Shown here: positions 2,117 through 47,878 of the stretch, one piece after another
Layout: each line of letters begins with the position of its first letter
Numbering within the stretch: the first letter of the stretch is position 1
Assembly: GCA_013697635.1 (NCBI GenBank)
Contig: JACCWM010000155.1
Location: 1 to 51,715 of the forward strand
DNA from: Lujinxingiaceae bacterium
GTDB taxonomy: Bacteria; Myxococcota_A; Bradymonadia; Bradymonadales; Bradymonadaceae
DNA length: 51,715 nt
Direction: 5' to 3'
Notes under the pieces: model-generated
Told to the model about the DNA's origin: nothing
What the model saw: the letters and a program-made list of their open reading frames with translations, nothing else
The model's database searches: none
Translations under genes and position numbers: made by a program

Positions 2117-2140
2117 CTGCCTCATCTTTTGCAGGGCACC

Positions 2141-3859
2141 ATGACCATTTTGTACGCACAACGTCTTCGTCGCATTTTCCTGGCCGCCCTGGCAGTGGTC
2201 TTGTTGTTCTCTGGCTTGAGCTGTGGCGATCACGGCGACGAGCCCTACCACCCGCCCGTGGGCGAGGGACCCTGGATTTTGGTCGACCTCTACCACACGC
2301 GCATTCAAAACCCTGAGGACTACCGCCTCACCAAGGGCAACTACGCCTACCAGGGCGTCTTTGGCTTCCATCGCCTCTTTGAGCACCTGCGCGTTCACGA
2401 TTACAAGTGGACCTCGATTCGCGAGATGCCCCTGTCCAAGCCCCGATTGAGCGGCTTTGACGTCTTGTTCATCAACCTCGTGCACGAGGGGCGCCCGGAC
2501 TTCTCGAGCGACGAGATCGTGGCGATCCAGGAGTTCGTCTACAATGGCGGCGGCCTCTTCATCATCGCCGACCACACCAACGTTTACCGCCACGCGGAGC
2601 GCGTCAACCCGATCATTGCCCCGATGGGCCTCGAGATCTTGTTCCACACTGCGGTCGACTTTCCGCCGCAATTCTCGGTGGGCGGCAACGGTTGGATCAT
2701 GATGTTCGATTTCGCCGAGCACGCGGTCACCGCCGGCGTCGACATGATAAGCTTTCAGACCGGCGGCGCGATGCACGCCTGGGAGAATCCCGCGATCGTC
2801 ATCGACGGTGCCCCCCTGGCCCAGGGCGGCGAGGGCGTGGCCTTCACCTCCGATCGCAGCTTCGCCGATCTATGGAACGAGGAGGAGACCAGTGGCTTTT
2901 ATGGCGACTGGCTGTGGAACGCCGACGCGACGGCTGAGCCCAAGGGCCCGCTCAACGGCGTGGTCACAGGGCGCTATGGTGCCGGGCGTATCGCGATCGC
3001 CGGCGACCAGAACATGTTCGGCGATGCCTGGCTGCACTTTGGCAACAACTTCGAGCTCGCCTTGAACATCTTCGAGTGGACCGCCCAACAGGAGACCACG
3101 GGCGATCTGCGCCTGCGTGACACCAAACCGGTGGGCTTGGACATCGGGCTCGATGCCTCGCGCAACAGCTACAACACCGGCCGCGTTGCCGCTGACGGCT
3201 ATTACACCTTCTTTGTGCATGCCAACCGCGACACGGACGTGACCGCACGTGCGACCACGCGCCTTGAAAACCACCACGACGCGCTCATCCTGCTCTCACC
3301 CACCAGCGATTATTCGCCCGCCGAGATTGCGATCATTGGCGGCTACCTCGAGAGCGGGCGAAGGGTCGTAATCACCTTCGAGGCCGAGAGCATCCACGCG
3401 TCGACGGCAAAGCTGGTCGAGGCGCTGGCACCGGATTTTTCGGTGAGCGCGCGCGGCGAGTCGGCGACCATCACCCAGGGCGCCGCGGCATTTCACGCCC
3501 TCGATATCGAACGCATCAACGCCCCGCTCACGCTGCAGTCGCAAAAGCTCATGGTCTCGGACATTGAGCTTGCGACGGCCACCGGCAGCCGCGATCAACC
3601 GCCCACCAACCGTTACCTGCTCGACGTCACTTCGAGCTGGGGTGAGCCGCTATTGACGGCGAGTAGCGGGACTGTCAGCGTGGACATCGCGCGATCAAAA
3701 CTCGTCGGCCAGGGTGAATTGATTATATTCTTGCAGGATGGTTTCTTTCGCAACCGCACGATGGGCTACAAAGAGACAGAAGCGCCCCGAGCTCATTCGA
3801 CGGCCTCGGTCAAATTGCAGTACAAATTTCTCGATTATCTGAAGAAACCCTCCGAATAG
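2141..3859 (+). CDS. Large secreted lipoprotein, GATase/DUF4350-like fold
   Basis: A 572-residue exported protein. The N-terminus is Arg-rich and then hydrophobic (FLAALAVVLLFSGLSC), consistent with a lipoprotein signal. Residues of roughly 40-320 resemble the Rossmann/GATase1-like domains of DUF4350-type proteins: VLFINLVHEG, then NGGGLFIIADHTN, and later GRYGAGRIAIAGDQNMF. The C-terminal half holds a second beta-rich region with a repeat of similar logic (LILLSPTSDYSP, GYLESGRRVVITFEAE). No catalytic triad is evident. ATG 2141 is chosen over the TTG at 2129 because the signal peptide begins there. It lies 24 nt after the cNMP-fold gene. Function is unknown; sensing or scaffolding at the cell surface is a guess. 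Confidence 0.6.
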   Translation: MTILYAQRLRRIFLAALAVVLLFSGLSCGDHGDEPYHPPVGEGPWILVDLYHTRIQNPEDYRLTKGNYAYQGVFGFHRLFEHLRVHDYKWTSIREMPLSKPRLSGFDVLFINLVHEGRPDFSSDEIVAIQEFVYNGGGLFIIADHTNVYRHAERVNPIIAPMGLEILFHTAVDFPPQFSVGGNGWIMMFDFAEHAVTAGVDMISFQTGGAMHAWENPAIVIDGAPLAQGGEGVAFTSDRSFADLWNEEETSGFYGDWLWNADATAEPKGPLNGVVTGRYGAGRIAIAGDQNMFGDAWLHFGNNFELALNIFEWTAQQETTGDLRLRDTKPVGLDIGLDASRNSYNTGRVAADGYYTFFVHANRDTDVTARATTRLENHHDALILLSPTSDYSPAEIAIIGGYLESGRRVVITFEAESIHASTAKLVEALAPDFSVSARGESATITQGAAAFHALDIERINAPLTLQSQKLMVSDIELATATGSRDQPPTNRYLLDVTSSWGEPLLTASSGTVSVDIARSKLVGQGELIIFLQDGFFRNRTMGYKETEAPRAHSTASVKLQYKFLDYLKKPSE

Positions 3860-9742: not shown

Positions 9743-12172
9743 TTAGCCCAGCAAATCGAGCACTTCTTTGGCGGTCTGGTAGCGGTTGTTGGGATCTTTT
9801 TCGAGCAGCTTCAAGATCACGCGCTCCATCTCCTTGCCGATGGCCGGGTTGATCGTGCGCGGCGAAGGCGGCGGCGTGTGCAGGTGATGGTAGCTGAGAT
9901 CGCCCTTGAAGAAAGGAACCGTGCCGGTCGCACACTCGAAGACGGTGCAGCCCAGGCTGTACAGATCGCTTCGAAAGTCGATGTCCTTGCCGATGATCTG
10001 CTCGGGTGACATGTAAAACGGCGTGCCGACCTGCTGGGTGTGGTTGTTCTGGTACTCGCGCAAGAACTTGGCCAGACCAAAGTCCATGACCTTGAGCGCC
10101 TTCTCGCGCGTGGTCATCACGTTGCCGCTCTTGATGTCACGGTGGATGATGCCCTTGGAGTGGGCGTACTGCAGGGCACGACAGCAGTTGATCAGGATGT
10201 AGCGCACCTTGTCCTCGGGCAGCGCGCCCGAGCGGCGCACGAGCTCCTTGAGGGTGGTGCCCTCGACGAACTCCATGGCCATGTAGTACTCGCCGTCTTG
10301 CTCACCGGCATCGAAGATCGTCACGATGTTAGGGTGCGAGAGCGCGGCGGCCGCGCGCGCTTCGCGCAAGAAGTATTTTACGGCCGTCTCGTTCTCGCGC
10401 AGGTTTTCGCCCAAGATCTTGAAGGCCACGATGCGCCCGAGCACGGTGTCGCGCGCCTTGTAGACGATGCCCATGCCCCCGCGCGCGATCTCCTCGAGTA
10501 TCTCGTAGCGCTGGCCGCCCTCGCCGTCGCCCTCGGAGGCCGAAAACAGCCCGCTGCCGGTCGTGCCGGTGATATTGCCCCGGCGCAACCTGCCGCGAAT
10601 CGTCTTTTGGCGAAGGCCGGCATCCTCGAAGTTGGGATCGATCTCAACAATCGCGCTGTAGCACTCCAACGCACCGGCCAGATCAGGCTCTTCTTCGAGC
10701 GCGCGCGCCATCTTGTAGTACAACCCCAGCGAGGCCTTCTCGGCGTTGCGGTTGCCCAGCGCGGCGCGGTACTTGCTGTAGGCCTTCTCAGCGCGCCCCT
10801 GGGCACGGAAGATATCGCCCTGCAGCTCGAGTCCGCGCGCGTAGATCGGGTCGCGCGAATCGATGTTCTCCAGGCTACGGATCGCCTCGTCAAAGCGGCG
10901 GTGCTCGAACTGCAGGCGCCCGGCGCGAAAGAAGTCGCCCTGGGCGTTGAGCACGCGAAGCTGGCCCTCGACGTCGCCAGCCTCGCGGTAGAGCTCGGCG
11001 GCGCGCGCGAGCTGATCGCAGAGCTCGGCACAGCGCGCGGCATGGGCCTGCATATTGGCCGAGACGTAGAGTTCGAGCGCACGCGCGTGGTTCTCGAGCT
11101 TCTCGAAGAGCGTGGCCGCCTCGCTGGCCTGGCCGGCCTCGTCGAAGAGCTGGGCTGCGCGCTCGAGGTCACCGGCATCACGAAACAAATGGGCGGCAGC
11201 GCCCTTGTCACCCTCATCGAGGGCCGCCTCGGCGCGCATGCGCGAGGCCTCTTGCTGCTCGCCGGCGTCTTCGAGCACCTTGGCTGCGAGTAGCGGCTGG
11301 TGGGCCTGCATCAAGAGCTCGGCTGCGCGGGTGTAATTGCCCGTCGAGCGCAGGCTGTCGGCCGCCTCGGTCAAGAATCCACCCTTGATCAGGATCTCGC
11401 TTGCGCGATCGCCCTGGTCGGCCTCGAGCAACAGATCGCCGGCACGGCGCGCATACTGACGTTCGGACTCGACGGCCTCCAGATCGCCGCCGGCCTGTGC
11501 CAGCGCCTGCTCGAAGTGGTTTTGAAAGTGCTCGGCGGCTTTGAGCTTGATGCCGGCCTCCTCAAAGCACTGCGCCGCGCGCAGCGGCTCCTGAGCGCGC
11601 TCGAAGTTCTCGGCGGCGCGGCGAAAGTCGCCCGCGAGCTGGTACTGGCCGGCGGCCAGCGCCCACTCGCCAACACGAAAAAACTCGGCGGCAGCATCGC
11701 GCGGCTGGCCGTCGGCCTCATAGATGCGCGCGGCCTGGCGGTAGTCGCCGGCCTTTTTGAAGCAATAGATCGCCTGGCCGTGGCTGCCCAGCGCCTGGAA
11801 AGTTCGCGCCGCCTTGAGAAAGGCCGCGCCCTTGACGTAGGTCTCGGCGGCCTCTTCATTCTCACCGGCGCGAGCCAAAATGTCACCGGCCTCTTCGAGA
11901 TTGCCCGCCTCGATCGCGCGCTGAATGTCGCGGCGCACGTCGCGCGAGAGGATACTCACCGGAGGCGCCGTGCTCTTGGAGTAATTGGCATGAAACCAGC
12001 GCATGCCAACGTAGGATCCGCCGGCCAGCGCCACCAGCCCGACCATGCTCGCGAACAAGGCAAAGACCGAGCCTATGCCGGCGCCCTGCCCGGCGACCTC
12101 GGCGATGTCGATGTACAAGCCGGCCTGCGCGACGATGCCAAACAACGTCAACTGAGCGATCATCGTGCCCAT
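9743..12172 (-). CDS. Membrane Ser/Thr protein kinase with long N-terminal helical-repeat domain
   Basis: An 809-residue Hanks-type kinase with its kinase domain at the C-terminus (about 545-805). It has the Gly-rich loop ARGGMGIVYKA, Lys in VAFKIL, HRDIKSGN, DFGLAK and GTPFYMSPEQ, so it should be active. A transmembrane helix lies at about 34-56. Residues of about 83-505 are an alpha-solenoid of about twenty 13-residue units of the form G-x3-x-A-A-x2-(F/Y/L)-x2-A, such as GDFRRAAENFERA, GDLERAAQLFDEA and DQLARAAELYREA. Most bacterial kinases carry the kinase domain first and the sensor last, so this order is unusual. It follows the PEGA protein gene by 9 nt and is surely co-transcribed with it. 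Confidence 0.9.
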   Translation of the reverse strand: MGTMIAQLTLFGIVAQAGLYIDIAEVAGQGAGIGSVFALFASMVGLVALAGGSYVGMRWFHANYSKSTAPPVSILSRDVRRDIQRAIEAGNLEEAGDILARAGENEEAAETYVKGAAFLKAARTFQALGSHGQAIYCFKKAGDYRQAARIYEADGQPRDAAAEFFRVGEWALAAGQYQLAGDFRRAAENFERAQEPLRAAQCFEEAGIKLKAAEHFQNHFEQALAQAGGDLEAVESERQYARRAGDLLLEADQGDRASEILIKGGFLTEAADSLRSTGNYTRAAELLMQAHQPLLAAKVLEDAGEQQEASRMRAEAALDEGDKGAAAHLFRDAGDLERAAQLFDEAGQASEAATLFEKLENHARALELYVSANMQAHAARCAELCDQLARAAELYREAGDVEGQLRVLNAQGDFFRAGRLQFEHRRFDEAIRSLENIDSRDPIYARGLELQGDIFRAQGRAEKAYSKYRAALGNRNAEKASLGLYYKMARALEEEPDLAGALECYSAIVEIDPNFEDAGLRQKTIRGRLRRGNITGTTGSGLFSASEGDGEGGQRYEILEEIARGGMGIVYKARDTVLGRIVAFKILGENLRENETAVKYFLREARAAAALSHPNIVTIFDAGEQDGEYYMAMEFVEGTTLKELVRRSGALPEDKVRYILINCCRALQYAHSKGIIHRDIKSGNVMTTREKALKVMDFGLAKFLREYQNNHTQQVGTPFYMSPEQIIGKDIDFRSDLYSLGCTVFECATGTVPFFKGDLSYHHLHTPPPSPRTINPAIGKEMERVILKLLEKDPNNRYQTAKEVLDLLG

Positions 12173-12181
12173 GAGTGGACC

Positions 12182-13264
12182 TTAGAAGCGGCCGTTGACG
12201 CCAAGCCAACCACCACTTCGAACCACGCCGACGTCGAGCTTGAACGACGGGCCCTGCACCGATGCAGCGGTGTCATCGCCGCGATTCATCGCATCGTAGG
12301 CCAAAATACCCACGCCGGCCGCTGCAATCACGCCGCCGGCGATATAGGAGACGAGCGCCATGGTGTGGTAGCCATTGGCATCATCCTTGAGTTGGTCGAT
12401 GCCAGCTGGCGAGGCGCCGGTTGCGCGCTTGTTGTAGCTGTTGACATCTTCGGTTGCGCTCATCTGCAAAATCGAAAACGCACCACCTGCTGCAAGCACG
12501 GCCACGCCGGTGCCCACCGTCACCCAACCCCAGGTCGCCAGAGTGCTTGACTCCTCAGCGGGCGGGGGCACAACCTTGGTCTTTTCGGCCACGAAGGGAA
12601 TTGGGCTGTCGACCGCGTCGCCCTGCTCCGGGCTGCGCGTGATCAAATCGGCCTCGTCACCCTCGACGGGATCGGCCTCGAGCAGCTCGAAGCTCAAAGC
12701 CTGCTCGGTTCCCGCCCTGAGCATCACCGTCTTGGTGGCGGGCTCGTGGGAGGGAAAGGTCACGACGAAGGTCGCCTCGCCAGCCTCGACGTCGATCTCG
12801 ACCGGCGTCTTGCCAAGGGGCTTACTCTCGCTCGATCCCAGAAACACCGACGCGCCCTGCGGCGTGCTGTCAATGCGCACCAGCGCCGGCAGCGTCGCAC
12901 GCAACGCCGTGATCCGGGTGCGCGCGCGTTTGGCTGCATCGCCCTTGGACTCCAGCGCCACGAAGGCCTCGTAGTGCTCGATCGCCGCGCGCGGGCGCTG
13001 CAGTTCCTCGGCCGTCTGGGCCAGACGAAACAAAATCACCGGCTCCGGGCGAATCGTGTTGGCCTGGAGATAGAGATCGTAGGCTTTCGAATAATCCTTG
13101 GCGTCAAAGGCGTCGTTGGCCGAGCGGACCAAGGTGAGCACTTGCTCGGCGCTGTTGTCCTTGGTCTGTGCAAAGGCCGGAGCCCCGAACAACAGGCCTG
13201 CGGCCAAGAAAAACACGGCCAGCAGGCGGCTGGATCGAACGATCTGGGTATGAGCTTGCACCAT
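12182..13264 (-). CDS. Secreted PEGA-domain protein with TPR-like N-terminus
   Basis: A 360-residue exported protein. After a signal peptide (AVFFLAAGLLFGAPAFA) come TPR-like helices (FDAKDYSKAYDLYLQANTI and PRAAIEHYEAFVALE). Next is a PEGA-type beta-domain (VRIDSTPQGASVFLGSSESKPLG and KTPVEIDVEAGEATFVVTFP), an acidic linker, and two transmembrane helices (about 248-270 and 300-325). PEGA domains are extracytoplasmic and common in myxobacterial kinase systems. TAGGAG lies 7 nt before the ATG. The kinase gene begins 9 nt after the stop, so this protein is a likely sensor or partner of that kinase. This is inference from gene order. Confidence 0.8.
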   Translation of the reverse strand: MVQAHTQIVRSSRLLAVFFLAAGLLFGAPAFAQTKDNSAEQVLTLVRSANDAFDAKDYSKAYDLYLQANTIRPEPVILFRLAQTAEELQRPRAAIEHYEAFVALESKGDAAKRARTRITALRATLPALVRIDSTPQGASVFLGSSESKPLGKTPVEIDVEAGEATFVVTFPSHEPATKTVMLRAGTEQALSFELLEADPVEGDEADLITRSPEQGDAVDSPIPFVAEKTKVVPPPAEESSTLATWGWVTVGTGVAVLAAGGAFSILQMSATEDVNSYNKRATGASPAGIDQLKDDANGYHTMALVSYIAGGVIAAAGVGILAYDAMNRGDDTAASVQGPSFKLDVGVVRSGGWLGVNGRF

Positions 13265-34886: not shown

Positions 34887-37091
34887 TTAAGGCGCGCTCT
34901 TGGCGCAGCGAATGCCCATCTCGTCAAGGCCCAGACTCCCTGCCCGATTGGCGACGCGACCATAACGCAGGTGCTGCTTGAAGCTGCCGCCGCGCCGGGT
35001 TCGCCCATAACCCTTGCTGGTCGTCTGGTGAGGATTGACCGTGTAGCTGTCCGTATAAAAGTTCGGGTCGTAGTAGTCGCTGACATACTCGGCCACGTTG
35101 CCGGCCATGTGCAACACGCCATAATAACTCGCCCCTTGGGCATAACTATTCACCTGGGCCACACAGTTGCCCAGTCCATTGCTACAAGACATGACCGCCC
35201 TGGACGCATCCTCGCTGTCGCCCCAGGGCCAGAGCACGGTGCGATCGTAGGGCCCCCGGGCGGCCTTCTCCCACTCGGCTTCGGTGGGCAGGCGCTTGTT
35301 TCGCCACTGGCAGTAGGCCTGGGCCTGCGAAAAGCTCACACAGCCCACGGCCTTGTCGACATCGCTGCCAAAAGCATTCTGGTAGGGGCACGACAGATCC
35401 AGGCGTTCGCACTGGCCGGCCAGCACGCAGTTGATGTAGTTGCCCCGCGTCACCTCCGTGCGGTCAATATAGTAGGGGTTGAGCTCGACTGTGTGGCGCG
35501 GGCGCTCGTCGGGCTCCGAGTAGCTCGACGATTGCAGCGAACCCATGATGAAGCTGCCTCCCGGGATGTAGACCATGCCGGCCAGCCCATTGGCGATCGG
35601 ACAGCCGCCGTCGATCACCCCGTCGCAGTTGTTGTCGATGCCGTCGCCACAGATCTCGGCGGGCATCGTGCACTGGGCAACGCCGCCCACACAGCGCTGC
35701 GTGCCCACGGCGTGTCCGCCACCGTCACAGACCCGGTAGCAGGCCGATTGGTTGTCGATGACCGAATCACAGTTGGTGTCCACGCCGTTGCAGAGCTCGA
35801 CGCTTCGCACGTCACAGGCCGACCAGGCCCCGTTGAGACAAAGGCGCACCGCCGCCGCCGGGCAGGCCTGCCCGCAGGACTCGGTGAGCACGAGCCCGTC
35901 GATGCGGGCATCGACCTTGCCGTCGCAATTGTTGTCGAGCCCGTCACAGATCTCGGCGCTGGGACTGACCTTGGGCTCACATGAGAGGCTGCCAGCGGCG
36001 CACTTGAACTCGCCGGCGGCGCAGACGCCGAGCAGTCCGGTGTCACAGCTCTGGCCCTTCTCGGGAAAGTCTTCGTCGATCTCTCCGTTGCAATTGTTAT
36101 CGAGCCCATCGCAAATCTCCGGGTTGGCCTGGGCGACGATACACTCACTCCACTGCCCCGCAGCGCAGCTCTGGGTGCCGGCGCCGCAGTTGTTCGTGCA
36201 AGCGCGCTGAAGGCCTTCGTCGAGCTGGCCGTTGCAATTGTCGTCAAGCCCGTTGCAGCTCTCGGCACGCGGCGCCTGGGTGGCCCGGCAATAGAGCTCG
36301 CCGGCCTCGCAGGCCGTGAGGCCGGGAGCGCAAATACCTTGCAGCCCGCTCGCACAGGCTGCGCCCACACCGGTAGGTGCGTTGTCGACCACGCCGTCGC
36401 AGTCGTCGTCGAGCCCATTGCATCGCTCGGCGCGTGCGCTCACACCACCGCTGCAAACGCCCCAGCGGCCGCCGACACAGGCCTGCGTGCCGCGCTCGCA
36501 GCGGCCCTCGTTGCTGCCGCAGCCGCGCGTATCCAGATCGGTGCACTCGCAGCCTTCGTCGATGGTGCCATCGCAGTTGTTGTCGATGCCGTCGCAAAGC
36601 TCGGGGCTCGGGCCCGTGCCGCCCTCGCAGGGGCCCCACTGGCCGTCGACACAGACCGACGCTCCCTGCACACAGGCGCCCTCGGAGATACCGCAAGATA
36701 CCACGAAGCCCTCGGCACAGATGGCGTTTCCAGCGTCGCCCCCGTCATGGCGGGCGTCGTGGCGGGCGTCGTGTTGGACGTCGATGGGCGGTTGAACGAC
36801 GTCCACGTTGCCTGGGCCAGAATCCGGCGGCAAAACCCCATCGCGATCGCCGCTGGCGTCGAGATCGAGGTCGGCATCGGGCAAATTGGCGCCGGGATCG
36901 GCGCAGACGCCACCGGTGCACACTTTCCCATCGAGGCAGTCACGCTCACTCGCGCAAACAAGGCGCACGTTTTGCCCAACGTCAAATGAGCACCCTGCAG
37001 CCAGGCAGACCAGTGCCAGCCCCAGCACCATCGCCAGTGACAACACCGGGCATCGTAGACCAAAAACGTTGAGCATATCGCGACTTATCAT
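34887..37091 (-). CDS. Lipoprotein with MopE-type repeats and C-terminal FGE-like domain
   Basis: A 734-residue lipoprotein (signal LSLAMVLGLALVCLAAGC). Residues of about 160-490 carry seven repeats of the MopE/putative-metal-binding type, C(D/N)G(I/L/V)D(N/D)NC(D/N)G, such as ELCDGIDNNCDGTIDEGC and EICDGLDNNCNGEIDED. Residues of about 502-734 are an FGE/SUMF1-type C-type-lectin-like domain: MVYIPGGSFIMGS, RLPTEAEWEKAARG, MAGNVAEYVSDYYDP and TRRGGSF. The catalytic cysteines that follow RGGS in active formylglycine enzymes are absent, so it is probably a binding domain. Extra cysteines suggest disulfides. It precedes no obvious partner. Confidence 0.85.
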   Translation of the reverse strand: MISRDMLNVFGLRCPVLSLAMVLGLALVCLAAGCSFDVGQNVRLVCASERDCLDGKVCTGGVCADPGANLPDADLDLDASGDRDGVLPPDSGPGNVDVVQPPIDVQHDARHDARHDGGDAGNAICAEGFVVSCGISEGACVQGASVCVDGQWGPCEGGTGPSPELCDGIDNNCDGTIDEGCECTDLDTRGCGSNEGRCERGTQACVGGRWGVCSGGVSARAERCNGLDDDCDGVVDNAPTGVGAACASGLQGICAPGLTACEAGELYCRATQAPRAESCNGLDDNCNGQLDEGLQRACTNNCGAGTQSCAAGQWSECIVAQANPEICDGLDNNCNGEIDEDFPEKGQSCDTGLLGVCAAGEFKCAAGSLSCEPKVSPSAEICDGLDNNCDGKVDARIDGLVLTESCGQACPAAAVRLCLNGAWSACDVRSVELCNGVDTNCDSVIDNQSACYRVCDGGGHAVGTQRCVGGVAQCTMPAEICGDGIDNNCDGVIDGGCPIANGLAGMVYIPGGSFIMGSLQSSSYSEPDERPRHTVELNPYYIDRTEVTRGNYINCVLAGQCERLDLSCPYQNAFGSDVDKAVGCVSFSQAQAYCQWRNKRLPTEAEWEKAARGPYDRTVLWPWGDSEDASRAVMSCSNGLGNCVAQVNSYAQGASYYGVLHMAGNVAEYVSDYYDPNFYTDSYTVNPHQTTSKGYGRTRRGGSFKQHLRYGRVANRAGSLGLDEMGIRCAKSAP

Positions 37092-46399: not shown

Positions 46400-47878
46400 C
46401 TACAGATCGAAGCGATAGCGCTGGACGAGCTTGCCCGGCTCGACCTTGATTGGCACCGTGCGCCGGTTCGCGCCGCTCTTGAGCTCGAGCTGGTAGTCTC
46501 CCGGGCGCAAGTTGGTCTGAAACGGAGTCTCGCCGACCTTGGCGCCGTTGTAGAAGACCTCGGCCTTGATGTTGGTGGAGAGGTAGACCTCGAGACCGTC
46601 GCCGTGGCGCAAGGCGTTGGGCTGCGCCGTGGCGGTTTTGGTGGGGGTCGTGACGGTTTTGGTGGGGGTGGCCGTCTTGGTGATCGGCGGCGGTGTGACA
46701 ACGGGGGGCTCAGGAGCGGTGTCGCCGATGACGAGGTAGCCGATGATTAGAAAGGCCGCGACGATGGCGATTAGAATGCCAAAAAAACCAAGAATCATCA
46801 GCGGTTGCATCTTGCCGCCGCCGTTGGCGTCGTCCACCGCTATGGACGGCACGGGCATCGTCGTGGTGGGAGGCAGCGCGCCGCTGTCGAATTTGCGCGC
46901 GCCCGGAAGCGCCGCCGTGGGTGGCACCGCTCGGGCCGTGGCGCGCGGTGTGGGCAGGCCGCGCAGCTGGCGTACAAAGGCCGAGAGCTCGCGGGCGCTG
47001 GCCACGAGGTTATTCTGGTAGAGAAAGTTCTCCAGGTCGCGAAGCATGGCGTCGGCCGAGGCGTAGCGCTCGTCGCGGTCTTTGGCCAGCGCGTGCTGGA
47101 TCGCGTGTAAGACGGGCTCGGGCAGATCGGCGCGGTGGATGCGCGGGTCCTGGGCGTGGGATTGCAGAATTTGGGAGACAGCGAGCAAATCGTCGCCAAA
47201 GGGTTTGACGCCGGTGAGCAGCTCGTAGAGCAGCACGCCCATGGCGAAGACGTCGACACGGCGGTCGAGCGGCTGCACGTTTTGAATCTGTTCGGGCGCC
47301 ATGTAGGCGAACTTGCCTTTGACCGCGCCAGCCTCGGTCTTGGACTGATTGACGGCCGCCTTGGCCACGCCAAAGTCGACGAGCTTGACGATGCCGTCAT
47401 TGGAGACGAGCACGTTTTGCGGCGAGATGTCGCGGTGCACGAGGCCAATGGCCGTTCCGTCGCGATCGGTGTATTCATGGGCGAAATCCAGCGCCGCGAG
47501 CACGTCACAGACGATGCGCACAGCGAGCTCGACGGGAAGCTGTTCGCCGCGTTCGTGCATCAACTGCAGCAACTTGGAGAGATCGAGGCCGTCGATGAAC
47601 TCCATGGCAATGAAGTAGTTGCCATCAAGCTCGCCCAGCTCATAGATCTGGCCGATGTGCGGATGGCTGAGCTGGGCGACGAGGCGCGCCTCATCGAGAA
47701 ACATGTTGGTGAAGTGCTGGTCGCGGGCCAGATGCGGCAAGATGCGCTTGATCACCAGCTCTTTGTTGAAGCCGCCCGGCCCCTTCTGCTCGGCTAACCA
47801 TATCTCGGCCATTCCGCCCGTGGCGATATGGCGAACGAGCGTATATTTTCCGAGCGTTTCAACGTTCATAGGGGCCAT
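46400..47878 (-). CDS. Ser/Thr protein kinase with C-terminal PEGA domain
   Basis: A 492-residue membrane kinase. The kinase domain is residues 11-280: Gly-rich loop ATGGMAEIWLA, K44, H148-R-D-I-S-P-Q-N155, D168-F-G, and GKFAYMAPEQ. HRDISPQN is the form common in myxobacteria. A TM helix (about 355-378) is followed by a Thr/Pro linker and a PEGA domain (AEVFYNGAKVGETPF, YQLELKSG). This is the usual order: kinase inside, sensor outside. Two ATGs (47878 and 47869) are possible starts. Its divergent neighbour is the lipoprotein gene at 48103. Confidence 0.9.
   Translation of the reverse strand: MAPMNVETLGKYTLVRHIATGGMAEIWLAEQKGPGGFNKELVIKRILPHLARDQHFTNMFLDEARLVAQLSHPHIGQIYELGELDGNYFIAMEFIDGLDLSKLLQLMHERGEQLPVELAVRIVCDVLAALDFAHEYTDRDGTAIGLVHRDISPQNVLVSNDGIVKLVDFGVAKAAVNQSKTEAGAVKGKFAYMAPEQIQNVQPLDRRVDVFAMGVLLYELLTGVKPFGDDLLAVSQILQSHAQDPRIHRADLPEPVLHAIQHALAKDRDERYASADAMLRDLENFLYQNNLVASARELSAFVRQLRGLPTPRATARAVPPTAALPGARKFDSGALPPTTTMPVPSIAVDDANGGGKMQPLMILGFFGILIAIVAAFLIIGYLVIGDTAPEPPVVTPPPITKTATPTKTVTTPTKTATAQPNALRHGDGLEVYLSTNIKAEVFYNGAKVGETPFQTNLRPGDYQLELKSGANRRTVPIKVEPGKLVQRYRFDL

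Follow-up and report, generated by a model that had tools for sequence, protein, structure and literature searches.

A predicted short-helix solenoid between a membrane helix and a C-terminal Ser/Thr kinase in a bradymonadial bacterium

The PknB/Stk1 PASTA kinases are built in the order kinase, transmembrane helix and extracellular PASTA domains. LapB (YciM), which has no kinase domain, is anchored by a transmembrane helix and carries a cytoplasmic TPR-type arm. Bacterial TPR-kinases are well known, and their TPR part lies C-terminal to the kinase and is mostly periplasmic when the protein is membrane-bound (PMC11032199, PMC1262709). The TPR- and WD40-kinases of Planctomycetota and myxobacteria are membrane Ser/Thr kinases of this kind, with helical repeats that are C-terminal and mostly periplasmic (PMC11032199). 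PknG likewise has its TPR domain after the kinase; through this domain, detection of a signal is coupled to phosphorylation of OdhI, an FHA protein (PMC8546545). Here we describe a kinase gene from a Lujinxingiaceae bacterium, located in a window of 51,715 nucleotides (the whole stretch of DNA analysed). Its 809-aa product has the same catalytic core as the PASTA kinases, joins a TPR-type domain to a Ser/Thr kinase as PknG does, and combines a membrane helix with helical repeats as the Planctomycetota and myxobacterial kinases do. Unlike all of these, it runs from transmembrane helix through solenoid to kinase: there is no PASTA domain, and the arm is N-terminal, built of 13-residue units and, judged by charge bias, cytoplasmic. 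The kinase itself is ordinary, whereas the arm and its position are unusual among bacterial TPR-kinases. The gene, its parts and its two neighbours are as follows.

9743..12172 (−), whole gene, encoding an 809-aa protein with a transmembrane helix, short-helix solenoid, TPR and Ser/Thr kinase
11981..12076 (−), transmembrane helix, residues 33–64, N-out/C-in by charge bias (hydropathy, AlphaFold model)
10868..11899 (−), predicted short-helix solenoid, residues 92–435, 24 helices with a 13-residue period (periodicity, model)
10580..10843 (−), predicted ordinary TPR hairpins, residues 444–531 (model)
10514..10579 (−), low-confidence, poorly conserved linker, residues 532–553 (model, alignment)
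9755..10510 (−), Hanks-type Ser/Thr kinase domain, residues 555–806, catalytic residues intact (Pfam, alignment)
12182..13264 (−), co-oriented gene upstream, coding for a PEGA-domain protein with TPR, a signal peptide and two hydrophobic helices
8783..9727 (+), convergent neighbour, conserved at most family loci, a TPR protein that is likely a lipoprotein

Pfam finds one kinase domain in the protein (residues 556–805, 2.1e-55); the domain ends at residue 806 of 809, with nothing C-terminal to it. The single membrane helix lies at about residues 29–57 by hydropathy and at 33–64 in the full-length AlphaFold model, so the original prediction of a C-terminal kinase behind a membrane helix and a helical repeat is borne out for the open reading frame at 9743–12172 (−). 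The nearest solved kinase domains are PknB chains (4e-57). The catalytic residues are all present (K585, E604, HRD at 677–679, N684, DFG at 697–699 and T712 in the activation loop), and among 21 homologues the catalytic Lys and Glu, the HRD motif, the Asn, the Asp and Gly of DFG and Thr712 are invariant, with the DFG Phe replaced by Leu in one remote homologue. The domain with its conserved motifs is thus that of a Hanks-type Ser/Thr kinase, and its intact catalytic residues suggest that it is capable of Ser/Thr phosphotransfer. The NCBIfam PASTA-kinase model scores 324.5 against a cut-off of 450, which places the protein outside the PASTA kinases.

The region preceding the kinase gives modest Pfam matches to SNAP, Clathrin, IFT140/IFT172, GEMI5, WDR35 and TPR models. 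Over residues 80–545, sequence identity at lag 13 is 0.196 compared with 0.090 in shuffles (z 8.4) and lag 26 reaches z 6.9, whereas lag 34 does not rise above z 2.5; the repeat is therefore genuine, and it is of another kind than the 34-residue TPR. AlphaFold2, run on residues 72–530 with the 21 homologues, returns a model of the arm (mean pLDDT 94.6) in which one helix is predicted for each 13-residue unit. These helices are mostly ten residues long with three-residue gaps, and the 13-residue spacing extends over 92–218, 254–319 and 323–435, with one longer insert in the solenoid near residues 219–253. The original prediction had named a 13-residue repeat, which stands, and had put it at about twenty units, which is slightly low: the models contain 24 short helices, with starts at 92–209 (ten, exactly 13 apart), 254–306 (five) and 323–427 (nine). 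Structure prediction had been proposed as the check on whether 34-residue hairpins occur, and it divides the arm. Residues 92–435 form short helices and no such hairpins, but longer helices at 444–531, the C-terminal end of the arm, form ordinary TPR hairpins, the one part that conforms to the 34-residue helix-turn-helix of the TPR family. The full-length model concurs, with the membrane helix, a low-confidence linker at 532–552 and the kinase from 555; its pTM of 0.45 leaves the relative placing of the domains undefined.

The units of the 21 homologues yield the consensus A-G-D-x-x-x-A-A-x-L-Y-x-x, with 88% Ala at the first position of the AA pair, and invariant Ala columns include 95, 108, 121, 134, 160, 186 and 199. 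A 26-residue unit with alternating A and B helices was considered and rejected. The first block shows no clear alternation (lag-1 similarity 3.49, lag-2 3.41), and in the second block alternation is weak (lag-1 3.00 versus lag-2 3.21).

Run against PDB sequences, a profile restricted to the short helices (residues 89–436) matches IFT144 (1.9e-13) and IFT172 (1.6e-12) best, followed by IFT140, IFT122, IFT121 and alpha-SNAP (3.8e-07). Mere composition was rejected as the source of these matches: the reversed-sequence profile has no match to PDB sequences at 0.01 (8 rows, versus 17 for the forward profile). Of the 21 homologues, 17 are matched by the Pfam SNAP model and 16 by the Clathrin model; Pfam IFT models likewise match most of them. 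Whole-fold comparison returns OGT, IFT-A and APC/C, all at low TM-scores; most of the top VIA-align rows fall on the TPR end of the arm, and middling Z values are unspecific for repeats. By the sequence likeness of its repeat, then, the arm belongs to the short-helix, TPR-like class known from IFT subunits (IFT-A and IFT172) and alpha/gamma-SNAP, and true TPR hairpins follow on from it. A compact solenoid unlike standard 34-residue TPRs had been anticipated, and this holds in part: the 13-residue helices do differ, but the class is not alien to TPRs, being IFT/SNAP-like and joined to true TPR.

This likeness lies at the level of sequence, where both descent and convergence of a simple repeat are possible. 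We think it improbable that the gene stands for an ancient and so far undescribed family of bacterial kinases in which the arm is related by descent to the short-helix solenoids of IFT, coat and SNAP proteins, as their bacterial counterpart. The protein differs from those proteins in being a membrane-anchored bacterial protein that carries a kinase; no other IFT parts are matched, and Pfam finds no WD40 propellers in the 809 residues at 0.01, which separates it from IFT-A subunits. From the arm it can be seen that IFT- and SNAP-like solenoids have a firm place in bacteria. Elsewhere in the window, a DUF4350 protein (2129–3859 (+)) also passes the cut-off of the IFT52 GIFT domain model by a small margin (1e-06); this second IFT-like match in the window is probably coincidental.

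To place the arm relative to the membrane, we counted Lys and Arg within fifteen residues on each side of the last transmembrane helix, over the homologues in which hydropathy finds one (a few distant members have no clear helix in this simple scan). There are 59 before the helix and 155 after it, a statistical bias by which arm and kinase are assigned to the cytoplasm. The topology would thus be one transmembrane helix at the inner membrane with both arm and kinase on the cytoplasmic side, and the ectodomain of the window protein is almost nil. An ordinary membrane TPR-kinase with its domains merely reordered, in which the repeat is a periplasmic sensor as in Planctomycetota, would be in keeping with the TPR models that match part of the repeat region and with the mostly periplasmic TPR arrays of membrane-spanning kinases in that phylum (PMC11032199). 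The single helix, however, precedes both repeat and kinase, which must then share a side, and the kinase needs ATP; the charge bias agrees with a cytoplasmic arm, the period over residues 92–435 is 13 rather than 34, and the reported arrays are C-terminal to the kinase. A periplasmic sensor arm is accordingly disfavoured by the charge-bias topology, and we regard this explanation as very improbable.

The same genome offers a direct comparison. In its 6.2 Mb the kinase query has 113 matches, nearly all of them to the kinase part, and the arm is found in only one. The kinase domain is N-terminal in each of the 36 paralogues sampled (starting before residue 120 in 35 and at residue 135 in one), which agrees with the earlier statement that the usual order is kinase first and makes the 809-aa protein the exception. 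The 113 matches in themselves amount to an unusually large kinase set, and a second kinase lies inside the window, at 46400–47878 (−).

A single-copy orthologue (E below 1e-80) is kept in 19 of the 21 genomes of the window's family, and both exceptions fall in one genus. Across the phylum, the arm profile at 1e-20 matches 123 of 284 sampled genomes, about 65 of them over nearly the whole arm length (counted from the table). Among the matches listed in a search of genome contigs, which used the full-length query and hence leans on the kinase, an arm with a C-terminal kinase occurs in Myxococcota, unplaced Deltaproteobacteria, Nitrospirota, Aminicenantes, Acidobacteria, Methylomirabilota and Hydrogenedentes. 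Far from being limited to one genome, the architecture is widespread, recurring in several phyla. The order of transmembrane helix, short helices and kinase is without a description in the open-access papers searched; one elsewhere is possible. A kinase-domain tree sorts the homologues largely by phylum, with an unresolved backbone, and a constraint that keeps the arm-kinase set together is not rejected by the AU test (p-AU 0.825, or 0.61 with the Hydrogenedentes row included), so that one origin of the set is possible. A differently built kinase, kept as a single orthologue and present in several phyla, offers an entry point to the role of a core, non-expanded kinase in kinase-rich bacteria. 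The same region of the tree holds a second group of C-terminal kinases (L089–L116), mostly of 1,070–1,680 aa and with weaker arm-profile matches; at several of these loci the neighbour is an EPSP synthase or a sigma factor.

The genes beside the kinase are conserved within each lineage and differ between lineages. Within the window's family, the PEGA gene is directly upstream, about 10 bp off in the window, and it is found at every family locus whose upstream flank is covered. We consider the PEGA protein, whose hydrophobic helices are judged by hydropathy alone, a candidate membrane partner of the kinase. The convergent TPR protein is a conserved neighbour with no sign of joint action. At six Nitrospirota loci, the gene immediately upstream instead encodes an FHA-domain protein, and in most cases it overlaps the kinase gene by a few bases; an FHA protein is also the substrate of PknG. 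In all 20 sampled Myxococcota genomes outside the window's class, from seven families, the order ruvC-ruvA-ruvB-kinase-lpxC is found on one strand. Because the neighbour varies with lineage, neither PEGA nor FHA can be a universal partner. The ruvCAB-kinase-lpxC cluster and the FHA-kinase pair point to possible substrates that are directly testable.

The lpxC gene raises the question of an envelope-biogenesis kinase that steers LPS synthesis through LpxC, as a kinase analogue of LapB/YciM. The invariant adjacency in those 20 genomes would suit such a role, and LapB, a membrane protein, regulates FtsH-mediated degradation of LpxC (PMC9356133). The kinase and LapB also have in common a membrane-anchored TPR-type arm and, through synteny in part of the phylum, a link to lpxC. 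TamB, divergently upstream at several loci of the window's family, would fit an envelope role more broadly. Set against this, none of the 21 family genomes, the window's own among them, has LpxC (PF03331), although 19 keep the kinase; LPS control via LpxC therefore cannot be the function of the kinase there. The same absence rules out LpxC as a universal target. Furthermore, the Nitrospirota loci bear the FHA gene instead, and conserved adjacency may reflect plain operon history. The LpxC version is thus already refuted for the window's family; a broader envelope role is still compatible, and as a whole we judge the explanation unlikely. Several other families of the window's class do have LpxC, and bacteria of the window's family may lack canonical lipid A. 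At the 20 Myxococcota loci (L141–L160), DNA repair genes, the kinase and the first committed enzyme of LPS synthesis form an unexplained link. Near an Aminicenantes kinase, about 3 kb away, one protein combines a response-regulator receiver domain with LpxC (L110:1289–2623 (−)), and a ClpB-like AAA gene stands between the two.

We favour, with moderate confidence, a scaffold kinase tethered to the membrane, with a solenoid that recruits a partner and so controls or aims the kinase. The one transmembrane helix would hold the protein at the inner membrane with solenoid and kinase in the cytoplasm, and the alpha-solenoid would act as a protein-binding arm for a membrane or cytoplasmic partner. 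That partner may bring a signal or a substrate to the kinase, which would hang from the arm by a flexible linker and in this way be controlled or aimed. In the window's family the partner would most likely be the PEGA protein encoded just upstream, the best candidate given that the kinase protein itself is almost without an ectodomain; in Nitrospirota it would perhaps be the neighbouring FHA protein. That the arm may collect partners or respond to the state of an assembly, as first proposed, is plausible. Within the family, the end of the arm (residues 389–531) is better conserved than the first units (0.64 versus 0.47), as would be expected of a specific site.

An arm that serves mainly for self-assembly would lead to a different mechanism, in which packing of solenoids against one another gathers the kinases at the membrane and trans-autophosphorylation serves as the switch. 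TPR-type arrays are capable of self-association, the repeat units here are nearly identical, and the invariant Thr712 of the activation loop fits autophosphorylation. The better conservation of the arm end than of its beginning, however, is more in keeping with a specific site than with uniform packing, and self-assembly as the main purpose of the arm seems doubtful to us. Partner recruitment by the scaffold kinase is the reading we retain.

Apart from the kinase locus, the window encodes a protein (34887–37091 (−)) that has a sulfatase-modifying-factor domain alongside six MopE-type Cu-binding motifs.
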